Of a stretch of 20,745 nucleotides of DNA, positions 3,382-8,770 are shown piece by piece. Position 1 is the stretch's first letter. Every line of letters starts with the position of its first letter. The position numbers and the translations under genes were made by a program. The notes beneath the pieces were generated by a model. The model saw only the letters and a list, made by a program, of their open reading frames with translations. It ran no database searches and was not told the DNA's origin. Origin of the DNA: a virus; IMG/VR virus record IMGVR_UViG_3300031974_002286, positions 1 to 20,745 of that record; one strand, given 5' to 3'.

Positions 3382-3417
3382 GTCATAGTAATATCCTATT
3401 TAGATTTTAAGTGTGTG

Positions 3418-3453
3418 AAGTGGCGTCATCATTGCGATGGCGTCATTTTTTTT
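3418..3453 (+). terminator. Rho-independent terminator of replication operon
   Basis: TGGCGTCATC (3421-3430) and GATGGCGTCA (3436-3445) pair over 10 bp with two G-T wobbles around the loop ATTGC. Flanking A/T extends the stem, and eight T residues follow. It separates the replication genes from the ribozyme operon. Confidence 0.85.
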
Positions 3454-3502
3454 GTTTCTGAATTTAAAATAAATTTGGAATTATTAAAAAAAATTTGGAA
3501 AA

Positions 3503-3530
3503 TTGAAAAATAATTTGTATTATATAATTG
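3503..3530 (+). promoter_or_regulatory. Putative promoter of the ribozyme operon
   Basis: TTG at 3503-3505, a 17-bp spacer and TATAATTG at 3523-3530 fit the Bacteroidota TTG-N17-23-TAnnTTTG pattern with one mismatch in the -7 box. It lies in a strongly AT-rich stretch right after a terminator and just upstream of the structured leader. No other convincing promoter is seen before the gene at 3615. Confidence 0.5.
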
Positions 3531-3532
3531 TT

Positions 3533-3580
3533 CGATTAACGCGCGAAGGCGCAAGGGAATCGTTCGAAGTTCTTTGACAT
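3533..3580 (+). promoter_or_regulatory. Structured leader with boxA-like antitermination motif
   Basis: CGATT (3533-3537) pairs with AATCG (3558-3562) around an inner GCGC-GAAG-GCGC hairpin (3541-3552). This is followed by GTTCTTTGACA (3569-3579), which resembles the rrn boxA core (TGCTCTTTAACA in E. coli). A hairpin followed by boxA is the order found in rRNA leaders, where NusB/S10 bind to make polymerase resistant to termination. A role in keeping polymerase moving through the ribozyme operon is inference. Confidence 0.45.
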
Positions 3581-3614
3581 ATTGGAAAATTGTTTAACAA
3601 AAACCTTAATTTTT

Positions 3615-4028
3615 ATGAAAAAATTTAAAGTTGACACATCGTGGTTAATTCTGACAGAACAAGAAAAACAAAACTTCAAGCCGCAAATGGTTCATTTTGA
3701 TTCATCAAACTACAATCAAATGCAATACAATCTCAACCGCTTGGTTGATGAACTTGAAGAAACCGGCAGATTGCAAATCCCCATTCGGGGCAAAGCACAT
3801 CCGACGAAGGTTGATATTTATCAATCGTTGTATTTCAAAATTCAGAACGTACCCACCCAAAGCGTAACTTCAATGAATACCGAAACCGGTAAATATGAAA
3901 TCACGGAAATTGATTCACATGACCGCGTTTTGATTTGGGATGAATACAACAGAAATCCGGGCATGAGTTCGGACGCGAAGCGAGCGTTGGAAAGCACACT
4001 TTCAAAGTGGGGCATTAAAACGTTCTAG
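3615..4028 (+). CDS. Hypothetical protein, first gene of ribozyme operon, 137 aa
   Basis: The frame is open from a TTG at 3582, but the ATG at 3615 is preferred: it follows AACCTTAATTTTT, which matches the AU-rich leaders of the other operon genes, and the TTG lies right beside the boxA-like motif. The product starts MKKFKVDTSWLIL and is soluble and mixed-charge, with no motif I recognise. Its conserved-looking middle (residues about 55-75, rich in Pro, Lys and Tyr) and Trp-containing C-terminus do not suggest a function. The TAG at 4026-4028 ends 7 bp before hammerhead ribozyme 1, whose cleavage would detach this mRNA from the rest. It is the only cistron in the operon not preceded by a ribozyme. 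Confidence 0.7.
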   Translation: MKKFKVDTSWLILTEQEKQNFKPQMVHFDSSNYNQMQYNLNRLVDELEETGRLQIPIRGKAHPTKVDIYQSLYFKIQNVPTQSVTSMNTETGKYEITEIDSHDRVLIWDEYNRNPGMSSDAKRALESTLSKWGIKTF

Positions 4029-4035
4029 TGTCGAA

Positions 4036-4092
4036 GTGTAATTGACAAGGGTTTAATACCCGAAACACCCGATTCGTTCGGGTGTCTTACAC
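4036..4092 (+). ncRNA. Hammerhead ribozyme 1 (type I, variant core)
   Basis: Stem I is GTGTAA/TTACAC (4036-4041 with 4087-4092). The core strand is TTGACAA (4042-4048), stem II is GGGT-TTAAT-ACCC (4049-4061), GAAA lies at 4062-4065, stem III is CACCCGA-TTCGT-TCGGGTG (4066-4084), and the cleavage triplet is GTC. Predicted cleavage falls after C4086, 24 nt before the next ATG. The normal CUGANGA core reads UUGACAA: positions 3 and 8 changed from C-G to U-A, keeping the catalytically needed 3-8 pair. An outer helix AGTGT/ACACT (4027-4031 with 4095-4099) may extend stem I beyond an internal loop. Activity may be reduced compared with the canonical copies. Confidence 0.8.
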
Positions 4093-4110
4093 AAACACTT
4101 AAATTTTCAA

Positions 4111-4179
4111 ATGAGTATAATAACAAACTTAATGGCTTGTTTGCTTCATGCAAAAGCCACGTTGGAAGTCATCAAATGA
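4111..4179 (+). CDS. Tiny hypothetical peptide, 22 aa
   Basis: The ATG sits 24 nt after the predicted cleavage site of ribozyme 1 and is preceded by the standard leader with AAACACTTAAATT, exactly like the larger genes of the operon. That context is the main reason to call it. The peptide starts MSIITNLMACLLHAKA and is fairly hydrophobic. Its TGA overlaps the ATG of a second tiny ORF (ATGA at 4176-4179). Either both are real coupled micro-genes, or the cassette holds a decayed or frameshifted gene. No function can be given. Confidence 0.4.
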   Translation: MSIITNLMACLLHAKATLEVIK

Positions 4180-4238
4180 ACGATAACCATTGCGAATCAC
4201 ATTTCGATGATGTAATAGTAAAACTGACGACGCTTTAA
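4176..4238 (+). CDS. Tiny hypothetical peptide, 20 aa, coupled to previous ORF
   Basis: Begins at the ATG of an ATGA overlap with the 22-residue ORF. It encodes a short polar, His/Asp-containing peptide (MNDNHCESHFDDVIVK) and ends at a TAA inside stem II of ribozyme 2. In the upstream ORF's frame, three stops (TAA TAG TAA) occur at 4213-4221, just before ribozyme 2, as if a longer gene originally ended there. This ORF could be a chance frame. Confidence 0.25.
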   Translation: MNDNHCESHFDDVIVKLTTL

Positions 4239-4272
4239 TAGCAGAAACACCCAACCAATGGGTGTCTTTTAC
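4218..4272 (+). ncRNA. Hammerhead ribozyme 2 (type I)
   Basis: Stem I is GTAAAA/TTTTAC (4218-4223 with 4267-4272). The core is the canonical CTGACGA (4224-4230). Stem II at 4231-4243 pairs GCU/AGC, but the closing 10.1-11.1 position is a C-A mismatch; its loop is TTAAT. GAAA is at 4244-4247. Stem III is CACCCA/TGGGTG, ending at G4264, followed by U-C. Predicted cleavage falls after C4266, 28 nt before the ATG at 4295. The downstream leader carries AAACACTTAAATT at 4273-4285. Confidence 0.85.
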
Positions 4273-4294
4273 AAACACTTAAATTTTAAAAATT

Positions 4295-4585
4295 ATGACG
4301 AAAACAAAAGAAAAATCAATGTACGAAGCATCACCCGACCACACAGAAATCAAGAACCACAAAATGATTGGTCGAACAATAAAAAAGTGGTGCTTTGGAT
4401 TGGAAGTTCTTGCAAAAGTGACCCGCGTTTGGGAAACACCTTATTCCATATCAATGGAAACAGAACACGAACCGGTAAGATACCGCGACGATTTTTTCAC
4501 CAAAGGTTCGGTGACTTTGCGAAAGTGTGATGGTTGGATTATTGGAACCGACCACCTAACGCCCGAAGATTTTTTGACAAAGTAA
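4295..4585 (+). CDS. Hypothetical protein, ribozyme operon, 96 aa
   Basis: The ATG at 4295 lies 28 nt downstream of the ribozyme 2 cleavage site, behind the conserved leader. A longer frame starting at 4258 overlaps the ribozyme in another phase and is not used. The protein starts MTKTKEKSMYEAS and has a central run rich in Trp, Phe, Val and Leu, then a probable beta-rich C-terminal half (RYRDDFF, DGWIIGTDHL). It looks like a small globular cytosolic protein; no family is recognised. Its TAA (4583-4585) lies inside the 5' strand of stem I of ribozyme 3, so a ribosome finishing this gene would sit on that ribozyme. Confidence 0.75.
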   Translation: MTKTKEKSMYEASPDHTEIKNHKMIGRTIKKWCFGLEVLAKVTRVWETPYSISMETEHEPVRYRDDFFTKGSVTLRKCDGWIIGTDHLTPEDFLTK

Positions 4586-4637
4586 AACTGATGAGTCTTA
4601 AATAGACGAAACACCCAAACATTTGGGTGTCTTTTAC
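4582..4637 (+). ncRNA. Hammerhead ribozyme 3 (type I, canonical)
   Basis: Stem I is GTAAAA/TTTTAC (4582-4587 with 4632-4637), the core is CTGATGA (4588-4594), stem II is GTCT-TAAAT-AGAC (4595-4607), GAAA is at 4608-4611, stem III is CACCCAAA-CA-TTTGGGTG (4612-4629), and U4630-C4631 completes the GTC triplet. Every conserved core nucleotide of a natural hammerhead is present. Predicted cleavage falls after C4631, 27 nt before the ATG at 4659. The stem III hairpin followed by T4 could be mistaken for a terminator. Confidence 0.93.
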
Positions 4638-4658
4638 AAACACTTAAATTCTTAAATT

Positions 4659-5144
4659 ATGGGAAGAAAAACAGAAGTTAACATTTTCAATACAATCGTA
4701 AAACTTAACCTTTACGGATGGGATGCGGCACGAGAAATCATGTGGATGCTAGAAAAGAAATTCAAAAGTAGTAATCACGGCAAAACAGACTATTCATACC
4801 TATGTGAACGAATAGACGTTAAAGACATGCCGGACACTAATGAAGACATTTCAGAATATACCAAATTTTGGCGCGTGTATCGATGTACAAAAGAATGGTT
4901 AAATCTGCATCCGGACACCGAACCTAGTTTTTATCTAATAGGCGGCAACCCGGAATACGCGCATGAAATTATTCCGCTTTATATCGACGGCGAAATAGCT
5001 TATTCTTACGGGCAAAATTTGACCGACGCATGTTATGCGGCTTATCGTCAACTTTCGTTTAGTGCAAACCGCACAAGAATAAAGACGAAAAGGGAAGCAG
5101 AACTTCCGGAATTTGAAACGGTTGAAGCGAAAAAAGTAGTGTAA
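4659..5144 (+). CDS. Hypothetical protein, ribozyme operon, 161 aa
   Basis: The ATG follows the ribozyme 3 cleavage site by 27 nt, with the shared AU-rich leader. The product starts MGRKTEVNIFNTIVKLN and contains a helical N-terminal part, a central aromatic segment (TKFWRVYRCTKEWLNLHP) and a charged C-terminal tail (KTKREAELPEFETVEAKK). It is probably a soluble cytosolic protein. I do not recognise a family or an active site. The stop codon TAA is the last three bases of the 5' strand of stem I of ribozyme 4, so gene end and ribozyme share sequence. Confidence 0.75.
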   Translation: MGRKTEVNIFNTIVKLNLYGWDAAREIMWMLEKKFKSSNHGKTDYSYLCERIDVKDMPDTNEDISEYTKFWRVYRCTKEWLNLHPDTEPSFYLIGGNPEYAHEIIPLYIDGEIAYSYGQNLTDACYAAYRQLSFSANRTRIKTKREAELPEFETVEAKKVV

Positions 5145-5193
5145 CTGATGAGCCTTACAATAGGCGAAACACCCGGCAACGGGTGTCTTACAC
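5139..5193 (+). ncRNA. Hammerhead ribozyme 4 (type I, canonical)
   Basis: Stem I is GTGTAA/TTACAC (5139-5144 with 5188-5193), the core is CTGATGA (5145-5151), stem II is GCCT-TACAAT-AGGC (5152-5165), GAAA is at 5166-5169, stem III is CACCCG-GCAA-CGGGTG (5170-5185) with a GNRA tetraloop, and U5186-C5187 ends the GTC triplet. Predicted cleavage falls after C5187, 26 nt before the ATG at 5214. AAGT (5134-5137) can pair with ACTT (5198-5201) to form an outer stem I helix beyond an internal loop, which could support the loop contacts that make natural hammerheads fast. Confidence 0.93.
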
Positions 5194-5213
5194 AAACACT
5201 TAAATTTTATAAA

Positions 5214-5465
5214 ATGGAAAACATTAAAAAAATCATGGACTTGGTTTCCAATGGTAAAAACGTTGAGATTTCAACTAAAGACGAATGGGACGTTTCAAAG
5301 GACGTAGGGATTTTAAAGATGGGAAATTCACCATGGCAAAACGATTGGGTTTTGTGGTGGAATGGTAAAATCATTAAATCCGTCAAAACCAAAAAAATCA
5401 TTAAGGACAAATTGATTCAATTGCAAAATGACAATGGTCATCTTCACATCGATGATATTTGGTAA
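5214..5465 (+). CDS. Hypothetical protein, ribozyme operon, 83 aa
   Basis: The ATG at 5214 is chosen over an in-frame ATG at 5148, because the latter lies inside the core of ribozyme 4 and would be cut away. The leader is 26 nt. The protein starts MENIKKIMDLVSNGK and carries a Trp-rich middle (SPWQNDWVLWWNGKII) and a basic then acidic C-terminus. It is small and soluble, with no recognised family. The TAA at 5463-5465 directly abuts stem I of ribozyme 5. Confidence 0.72.
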   Translation: MENIKKIMDLVSNGKNVEISTKDEWDVSKDVGILKMGNSPWQNDWVLWWNGKIIKSVKTKKIIKDKLIQLQNDNGHLHIDDIW

Positions 5466-5519
5466 GTTTAACTGATGAAGCCTAAATGGCAGAAACACCC
5501 GGCAACGGGTGTCTTAAAC
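5466..5519 (+). ncRNA. Hammerhead ribozyme 5 (type I)
   Basis: Stem I is GTTTAA/TTAAAC (5466-5471 with 5514-5519), a third version of this helix. The core is CTGATGA (5472-5478). Stem II pairs GCC/GGC within 5479-5491 with an A-A mismatch at 10.1-11.1 and a TAAAT loop. GAAA is at 5492-5495, stem III is CACCCG-GCAA-CGGGTG (5496-5511), and U5512-C5513 ends the GTC triplet. Predicted cleavage falls after C5513, 24 nt before the ATG at 5538. The conserved AAACACTTAAATT (5516-5528) overlaps the stem I 3' strand here. Confidence 0.85.
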
Positions 5520-5537
5520 ACTTAAATTGTAAAAATT

Positions 5538-6104
5538 ATGAGAAACAAAAACAAGGCTATGGAAGCCGACGCAAGAAAAAGAAGAATGCTACATTTTTTA
5601 AAAGGCAAAACCGCAAAGCAAAGAAATCGATATTTCAAAAGTATTGCAGATTTCGAAGCAAGTGAAATTGATTACAAAATCGAACACTACAACAAACCGG
5701 GTGCCGATGTAAGACGTACTTGGTTTAGAAACCGCGAAGAAGCCGTAAAATATTACGAAGAACGAAAGACGATGCTTCCAACGCTTATTTACAAGGCGAC
5801 GAAAGAAGGCGATGAATATTTTGACAACAAGTTGAAGTTCATGGTCAACAAGTTAGAATCGTTTGGACTACTTGAAGATGGTTGGGAAATTTCTGATTCA
5901 AATTTTAGCGTTTCGGAAGGTTTAGGACTTAACTTTTGGATTGAAGTTGCAAAGCAGACCGGAAAGATTTCAGAAGGCACCTATGAACGCGAAGAACGAC
6001 GCGTCTATGGTCGTTTAGTTTGGGTTGAGTGTTACGATAAGGTTTCACACTATCGTTTCATTGTGACTAACAAAAAGACAAATCACCACAAGCAGACCGC
6101 GTAA
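5538..6104 (+). CDS. Hypothetical protein, last gene of ribozyme operon, 188 aa
   Basis: The ATG lies 24 nt after the ribozyme 5 cleavage site. The N-terminus is strongly basic (residues 1-35, many Arg/Lys), which would suit nucleic-acid binding. It is followed by a helical charged region and a more compact domain with WEISDSNFSVSEGLG and RRVYGRLVWVECYDK. The final segment is basic and His-rich. I recognise no family. This is the longest gene of the operon and the only one not followed by a ribozyme; a strong terminator follows instead, so its mRNA would have a ribozyme-made 5' end and a normal terminated 3' end. Confidence 0.75.
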   Translation: MRNKNKAMEADARKRRMLHFLKGKTAKQRNRYFKSIADFEASEIDYKIEHYNKPGADVRRTWFRNREEAVKYYEERKTMLPTLIYKATKEGDEYFDNKLKFMVNKLESFGLLEDGWEISDSNFSVSEGLGLNFWIEVAKQTGKISEGTYEREERRVYGRLVWVECYDKVSHYRFIVTNKKTNHHKQTA

Positions 6105-6118
6105 TTGTAAAACACACC

Positions 6119-6144
6119 CCCCCGAAAACAATCGGGGGTTTTTT
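6119..6144 (+). terminator. Rho-independent terminator of ribozyme operon
   Basis: CCCCCGA (6119-6125) pairs perfectly with TCGGGGG (6132-6138) around a six-base loop, followed by six T. It ends the operon 15 bp after the last stop. Confidence 0.9.
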
Positions 6145-6169
6145 ATGTTTAAGAAAAAAAAATCAAATT

Positions 6170-7617: not shown

Positions 7618-8770
7618 AATCAATTGCAATGTGCAGTTTGAGCAACTTCTTAAATCAAACAAACGATTCAAAGTCCATCAAGGTGGAACAAGGTCGGGAA
7701 AGACTTTCGCCATTTGTCAGTATTTGACCTACTTGATTAGGACTTCGGACAAGCCTTTGACCATTTCGATTATACGAAAGACGCTTCCGGCTTTAAAGGG
7801 GTCAGTTATGCGCGATATGGTGAAGGTTCTGACAGACGCGAACATGTACCATCAATGCGTTCATAACAAGGCGGAAAACACCATCCAATTTGGCAAGCAT
7901 TTGATTGAGTTCCTTTCGATTGACCAACCGCAAAAAATCCGTGGTCGCGGTCGTTCGATTGCGTTCTTGAATGAAAGCAATGAATTGGATTTGGAAGACT
8001 TCCGACAAATCAACATGAGAACCCGCGACTTTGTGATTATCGACTTCAACCCGTCCGACCCGGTTCATTGGTTATACAACGAAGTGATTCCGCGCGAAGA
8101 TTGCGACACATGGATAACCACATACAAAGACAACAAATTCTTGCAACCGGAACTTGTGCGCGAAATCGAACGAATGCGGGAACGTGACCCGGACTTTTGG
8201 CGTGTTTATGGTGAAGGTCAACGGGCGTTTTTCAGTAAGCGACAAATATTTTCCGGATGGAAGTTTATTCCAAAAGAAGACTTTCCCGAATTGGACAATC
8301 CGACGATTGGCATTGACTTCGGATTTGCCAATGACCCAACCGCCATTTTGATTGGTCAACGAATCAACGGGGTGGTGTACATTCACGAACTTATGTATAA
8401 GACCGGACAAACAAATCAAGACATTGCCGATTTTCTACATGCGAACCAACTCAATGATGTTTTGGCTTATGCAGATAGTGCCGAACCCAAGTCAATTGTT
8501 GAGTTGCGACAAATGGGTTGCTTGGTGAAGGAATGCAAAAAAGGTCAAGGGTCAATCAATGCCGGTATTTCGTTAATAAAGGAATATGACGTTGTGGTTT
8601 CGCTTGAATCAAAGAACATGCAAACGGAATACAATTCCTATTATTGGGAACAACTGAAGGACGGCACGATTATCAACAAACCGGTAGACAAAATGAATCA
8701 TTTGTGTGACGCGTTTCGTTACATGTTTTATTCACAATATTCAGCACGAAACGAATTTTTCGTCATTTAG
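7610..8770 (+). CDS. terL: Terminase large subunit (packaging ATPase-nuclease)
   Basis: A 386-residue packaging motor. The ATPase domain has Walker A GGTRSGKT at 25-32, and a Walker B region FLNESNEL near 118-125. The nuclease domain begins with IGIDFGFANDPTA near residue 233, continues with YADSAEPKS near 286 and ends with NHLCDAFRYMFY near 362. These supply the acidic residues of the RNase H-like active site. The length is slightly short but typical of PBSX/Terminase_3-like enzymes. It cuts concatemeric DNA and drives it through the portal. The gene overlaps terS by 8 bp and is followed 24 bp later by the portal gene. Confidence 0.93.
   Translation: MIEINCNVQFEQLLKSNKRFKVHQGGTRSGKTFAICQYLTYLIRTSDKPLTISIIRKTLPALKGSVMRDMVKVLTDANMYHQCVHNKAENTIQFGKHLIEFLSIDQPQKIRGRGRSIAFLNESNELDLEDFRQINMRTRDFVIIDFNPSDPVHWLYNEVIPREDCDTWITTYKDNKFLQPELVREIERMRERDPDFWRVYGEGQRAFFSKRQIFSGWKFIPKEDFPELDNPTIGIDFGFANDPTAILIGQRINGVVYIHELMYKTGQTNQDIADFLHANQLNDVLAYADSAEPKSIVELRQMGCLVKECKKGQGSINAGISLIKEYDVVVSLESKNMQTEYNSYYWEQLKDGTIINKPVDKMNHLCDAFRYMFYSQYSARNEFFVI

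Follow-up and report, generated by a model that had tools for sequence, protein, structure and literature searches.

We identified an operon of six short cistrons in which every internal spacer carries a predicted type I hammerhead ribozyme. The unit lies in a 20,745-base IMG/VR record of viral DNA, here called the window, in which phage replication, terminase, portal, head and capsid genes are also present. It is bounded by two terminators, and hammerheads occupy five of its five internal spacers and no other place in the window; the 5′ side of the first gene (A) and the 3′ side of the last gene (F) are without one. A search for the promoter of the unit did not identify it, and its presumed site is the intergenic region that precedes gene A. 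The features are given below; bit scores are those of R1, a covariance model built from 65 diverse hammerheads of other viral contigs and none from the window, and its E-values are rough owing to a short calibration.

3417..3449, + strand: intrinsic-terminator-like hairpin upstream of the unit, 14-pair stem then T run
3450..3614, + strand: 165-nt intergenic region, presumed promoter site
3615..4028, + strand: gene A, 137 aa, no recognised family
4036..4092, + strand: predicted hammerhead 1 (type I), core UUGACAA (C3U/G8A), predicted cut after 4086; R1 56.2 bits, E 8.5e-12
4087..4110, + strand: leader after cut 1, 24 nt, contains AAACACTTAAATT
4111..4179, + strand: small ORF B1, 22 aa
4176..4238, + strand: small ORF B2, 20 aa, ATGA overlap with B1, end inside hammerhead 2
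4218..4272, + strand: predicted hammerhead 2 (type I), C.A mispair at 10.1-11.1, predicted cut after 4266; R1 58.5 bits, E 2.4e-12
4267..4294, + strand: leader after cut 2, 28 nt
4295..4585, + strand: gene C, 96 aa, no recognised family, stop codon inside stem I of hammerhead 3
4582..4637, + strand: predicted hammerhead 3 (type I), canonical, predicted cut after 4631; R1 70.0 bits, E 3.5e-15
4632..4658, + strand: leader after cut 3, 27 nt
4659..5144, + strand: gene D, 161 aa, no recognised family, stop codon inside stem I of hammerhead 4
5139..5193, + strand: predicted hammerhead 4 (type I), canonical, predicted cut after 5187; R1 61.3 bits, E 4.8e-13
5188..5213, + strand: leader after cut 4, 26 nt
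5214..5465, + strand: gene E, 83 aa, no recognised family
5466..5519, + strand: predicted hammerhead 5 (type I), A.A mispair at 10.1-11.1, predicted cut after 5513; R1 59.1 bits, E 1.7e-12
5514..5537, + strand: leader after cut 5, 24 nt
5538..6104, + strand: gene F, 188 aa, no recognised family
6119..6145, + strand: intrinsic terminator closing the unit, 7-pair stem then T run

The five longer cargo genes gave only weak, sub-threshold matches to Pfam and PHROG families, and no homologues of genes A, D and F were found in the viral_contigs collection. The interval between hammerheads 1 and 2 (4111-4238) holds small ORFs only, of 20-22 aa; B1 and B2 may form a coupled pair of small ORFs, or may be what is left of a single gene. 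The AAACACTTAAATT leader is found downstream of all five hammerheads and occurs in exact form nowhere else in the window.

Judged from their sequences and predicted folds, the five copies are almost certainly type I hammerheads. Our descriptor for this type (a pairing stem I, CUGANGA or its U3/A8 form, stem II, GAA, an A-U-closed stem III and H) finds exactly five in the window, all on the + strand. All fall within the stretch reported by the sequence-only reading, which had placed one type I hammerhead in each spacer with cuts after 4086, 4266, 4631, 5187 and 5513; the descriptor scan returns the same cut positions, each after C17, and the folds and R1 agree with the assignment. On 100 dinucleotide shuffles of the window the same descriptor gave a mean of 0.03 matches and a maximum of 1. 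The minimum free energy fold is the hammerhead three-way junction in every copy (z -2.4 to -3.7). Moreover, R1 recovers all five at 56-70 bits with E-values, rough as they are, of 8.5e-12 to 3.5e-15; after these, the best-scoring site in the window has an E-value of 1.5. In the R1 alignment 12 of 15 pairs are changed on both sides, a covariation to which the descriptor itself contributed in part by demanding pairing; the independent test is the match of R1 to the window copies, rather than the covariation. A chance origin of the motifs is ruled out by the shuffles (0.03 per window) together with this independent model. Coding repeats were also considered and rejected: among the sites listed, an open frame reads through 17% of hammerhead sites versus 66% of random positions.

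In all copies stem I is open and stems II and III are loop-closed, which is the type I arrangement. The core (C3 U4 G5 A6 N7 G8 A9 / G12 A13 A14, with A15.1-U16.1 and H17) is canonical in copies 2-5. Copy 1, with UUGACAA, is the single variant of the CUGANGA core that had been claimed; it carries U3-A8 in place of C3-G8, a compensated change that has already been found in nature and is active in vitro, according to Perreault et al. 2011 (PMC3088659). The three claimed forms of stem I (GTGTAA/TTACAC, GTAAAA/TTTTAC and GTTTAA/TTAAAC) are present as described, and stem I substitutions are compensated in all five copies. Stem III bases and the leader are identical throughout. For stem II the claim of compensated forms stood in part: position 10.1-11.1, at the base of the stem, is paired in copies 1, 3 and 4, but copy 2 has C.A there and copy 5 has A.A. 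These mispairs are the main uncertainty for complete processing. Copies 2 and 5, mispaired beside the core, may be slow, and Perreault et al. rejected candidates mispaired at 10.1-11.1 unless activity was shown (PMC3088659).

The sequence-only reading had also proposed a scan with the Rfam hammerhead models, which barely detect the copies. With Rfam 15, Hammerhead_1 (RF00163) matches copy 3 at 30.0 bits against a gathering threshold of 34 and HH9 (RF02275) matches copy 4 at 28 bits against 52, but no match passes gathering. Ten stretches in which the descriptor finds 53 hammerheads likewise gave none with Rfam 15 at gathering thresholds. The curated models RF00163, RF02275 and RF03152 (RAGATH-1-hammerhead) share the core, the three stems and the open stem I with the window, and weakly match copies 3 and 4. 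The phage copies differ from them in a stem I fixed at 6 bp, in A / AA flanks and in a short loop II, and are scored poorly by these models. Since the curated cut-offs report 0 of the 53 motifs in ten stretches, standard annotation hides the phage layout.

Self-processing of the transcript gene by gene is probably the best mechanism for the unit, though it is less certain that all five sites are cut completely. The six small cistrons of phage cargo would be transcribed into a single RNA, from the putative promoter region at 3450-3614 to the terminator at 6119-6145. Each spacer, on emerging from RNA polymerase, would fold as a type I hammerhead and cut itself after C17. The upstream RNA would keep the ribozyme body as its 3′ untranslated end, with stems II and III, the hairpin and a 2′,3′-cyclic phosphate, whilst the downstream RNA would begin with a 5′-OH and the 3′ strand of stem I (6 nt), and its start codon would follow directly on a short A/U-rich leader that is largely unstructured. 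The distance from cut to ATG is 24, 28, 27, 26 and 24 nt for copies 1-5. At its 3′ end the predicted upstream product has the stem III hairpin and a single further base, and the first 20 or more bases of the predicted downstream product are unpaired in four of the five cases. The outcome would be near-monocistronic mRNAs whose translation starts are clean and whose 3′ ends are blocked by a hairpin, made without host RNases or internal promoters, and the proposed benefit is that stability and translation could be uncoupled gene by gene. Because two copies are mispaired next to the core and cleavage is itself a prediction, near-monocistronic processing is something we infer. A ribozyme at every boundary and nowhere else makes for a clean test, with six short cistrons, five predicted cut sites and clear boundaries. 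If the reading is true, these phages would need nothing but RNA to process their mRNA one gene at a time.

Every copy has a G+C-rich stem III hairpin with a short T-rich stretch behind it, and the spacers might thus be read as intrinsic terminators or attenuators in which this hairpin and UCUU(U) stop or pause RNA polymerase, the likeness to a hammerhead being incidental. We consider this extremely improbable. A terminator scan calls none of the five spacers on the + strand, yet finds clear ones at 3417-3449 and 6119-6138; moreover, termination leaves the conserved CUGANGA/GAAA core, the compensated stem I and the hammerhead-model match unexplained. A different objection concerns the effect of cutting. 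Ribozyme cleavage within mRNAs often reduces expression in engineered systems, and here the cuts could expose 5′-OH RNAs to decay, keeping the cargo genes low instead of freeing them for translation. However, downstream of every predicted cut the coding sequence is intact and retains its whole leader and start codon, and the upstream RNA keeps its stop codon in full and a 3′ hairpin. Mere destruction would need no such regular positions, and down-regulation appears unlikely. The excised single-gene RNAs might instead be joined into circles through their 5′-OH and 2′,3′-cyclic phosphate ends, by a re-formed hammerhead or an RtcB-type ligase. Viroid-like RNAs share this end chemistry, and among the neighbour pairs listed the 5′ end of the excised RNA pairs 6/6 with the next stem I in 40 of 82, compared with 7.9% of random pairs. 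In the window, however, four RNAs would be excised and just that of gene C (4267-4631) has complementary 6/6 ends; in other arrays shared ancestry accounts for much of the pairing. Neither spliced nor circular products were found by Perreault et al. (PMC3088659), and circularisation seems very unlikely.

More serious is the possibility that the array consists of decaying repeats, with a hammerhead spacer duplicated along with gene insertions and only copies 3, 4 and perhaps 1 still cutting, to give three or four pieces and not six. The mispairs beside the core in copies 2 and 5 favour this reading, and shared descent is suggested by stem III bases and a leader that do not differ between copies. 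Against it, outside 10.1-11.1 each copy either retains the core or carries a compensated form, as with the U3-A8 pair of copy 1, and the changes in stem I all have a compensating partner. R1 still gives copies 2 and 5 scores of 58-59 bits, and a similar non-pair occurs in the array of another phage (the copy at 8593 of locus L105). We regard decay as somewhat doubtful, and it is a weaker form of gene-by-gene self-processing, not its opposite.

The origin of the array was approached through relatives of the window. Its primase-helicase has 80 relatives at 61-69% identity, and in the loci compared these keep the order primase, gene 3124, small terminase, large terminase, portal and capsid. The distance from the gene-3124 orthologue to the small terminase is a few hundred bases in the relatives read directly, compared with 3.8 kb in the window. 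The descriptor finds no hammerhead in the 80 primase-relative loci, R1 has no match in the 43 of them to which it was applied, and genes A-F are absent from all 80. Therefore, the array is a cargo block that was either acquired in the lineage of the window or lost by the others; its absence from the relatives makes it look acquired. Searching by leader sequence did not retrieve the same array elsewhere, and no close DNA relatives were found among named phages. The portal of Cellulophaga phage phi12:1 is among the closest named portals (31.6%), and Pelagibacter phage HTVC115P has a 128-nt stretch in common with L025, a locus of 12 hammerheads; in the first 20 kb of these two phages there was no match to the model.

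The sequence-only reading had proposed a search for the spacer array in related phage genomes. Absent as it is from the primase relatives, the layout does recur in other uncultured phage contigs. Two pattern scans of viral contigs gave at least 192 loci, some of them near-duplicates, and the descriptor finds one or more full hammerheads in 171 of those listed. A repeated order of hammerhead, leader with ribosome-binding site, gene, and stop codon no more than a few nt from the following hammerhead is found in L025, L105, L124, L194 and others. In L025 the descriptor finds 12 hammerheads; R1 finds 14 across the full 22-kb contig of this locus, and nine on another contig. Placement is regular: 80% of the 236 non-window sites listed have an upstream reading-frame stop at -25 to +12 of the motif and an ATG 15-50 nt past the cut, as do 2.1% of random positions and 2.8% of the chance pattern matches listed in cellular genomes. 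Stem I is exactly 6 bp in 249 of the 264 sites listed, the five window copies included. Among those 249 there is an A at -1 in 97% and at +1 in 94%, and the outer pair is G-C in 234 (94%); all five window copies likewise have an A before a 6-bp stem I, an outer G-C pair and an A after it. Stem I length, the A flanks and the outer G-C pair all lay outside the search patterns. A likely reason for the conserved unpaired A / AA beside the 6-bp stem would be a tertiary contact of stem I with loop II.

Among the matches listed, the same loop pattern belonged to a full hammerhead in 135 of 147 from viral contigs versus 1 of 117 from cellular genomes, and the full motif is thus strongly enriched in viral contigs. 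As a search for named prophages, the pattern gave that one full hammerhead at the matched place among the 117 cellular-genome matches listed. Neighbouring hammerheads (82 pairs in the contigs listed) have the same stem I in 29 pairs and the same stem II in 15, with 4.4% and 11.8%, respectively, for random pairs. We tentatively suggest, at somewhat less than even odds, that hammerhead-punctuated operons may be a general and largely virus-specific expression format. Small cargo genes of uncultured phages of several host types would then be carried as leader-gene-ribozyme cassettes, each ribozyme setting the 5′ end of its neighbour and the 3′ end of its own gene, with blocks gained and lost between phages. 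The layout is present in many uncultured phages yet hidden from standard annotation.

The view that no gene-by-gene spacing by hammerheads was known is not supported. Perreault et al. 2011 had already described prophages in which multiple hammerheads flank individual genes or short blocks, had proposed that single-gene-length mRNAs are made from long transcripts, and had observed cleavage of tandem phage hammerheads in three arrangements in vitro and in one in E. coli (PMC3088659). Those clusters share with the window several same-strand hammerheads flanking individual genes, here five in 1.5 kb, and the U3/A8 core variant. As such clusters are already published, the unit of the window is a fuller form of a known arrangement. 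It differs from the clusters described there in that every internal spacer of a delimited operon has a hammerhead, all of type I and with a shared leader; up to 14 hammerheads per contig occur among the contigs listed here, compared with a triple array as the largest in that text (PMC3088659). Hammerheads of satellite RNAs, retrozymes and schistosome repeats have the same catalytic motif and cleavage chemistry, but cut multimeric replication or retrotransposon transcripts to unit length, whereas the cuts predicted in the window fall between protein-coding genes of a DNA phage. A 2017 review lists the role of prokaryotic hammerheads as open (PMC6155905), and a 2023 paper reports bacterial hammerheads enriched near other ribozymes and Mu-like phage genes for reasons unknown. 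A literature search covering mainly open-access journal papers found no later paper on complete hammerhead punctuation. What the present analysis adds is the complete punctuation, the recurring leader-gene-ribozyme layout, the conserved flank of stem I, the near-absence of full motifs among the cellular matches listed and the failure of the Rfam cut-offs to report the motifs.

Lastly, several of the other loci have additional elements beside their hammerheads. In L048 (6193-6246), L105 (7495-7546) and L124 (6255-6306) a palindrome, for example GGGAAATAATTCCC, directly follows stem I, and several base-changed versions of it still pair. The cut mRNA would thus begin with a 5′ hairpin, which may protect the 5′ end. 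The leaders in L079 (15-74) and L162 (2544-2601) contain GTCTAA again, as a copy (L079) or near-copy (L162) of the 5′ strand of stem I, so that the new 5′ end could fold back on the leader after the cut. In L009 (4265-4300) and in L078 (after 5619) a second CTGATGAGCGC...GCGCGAA core lies no more than 15 nt past the hammerhead, and these are perhaps direct tandem ribozymes.
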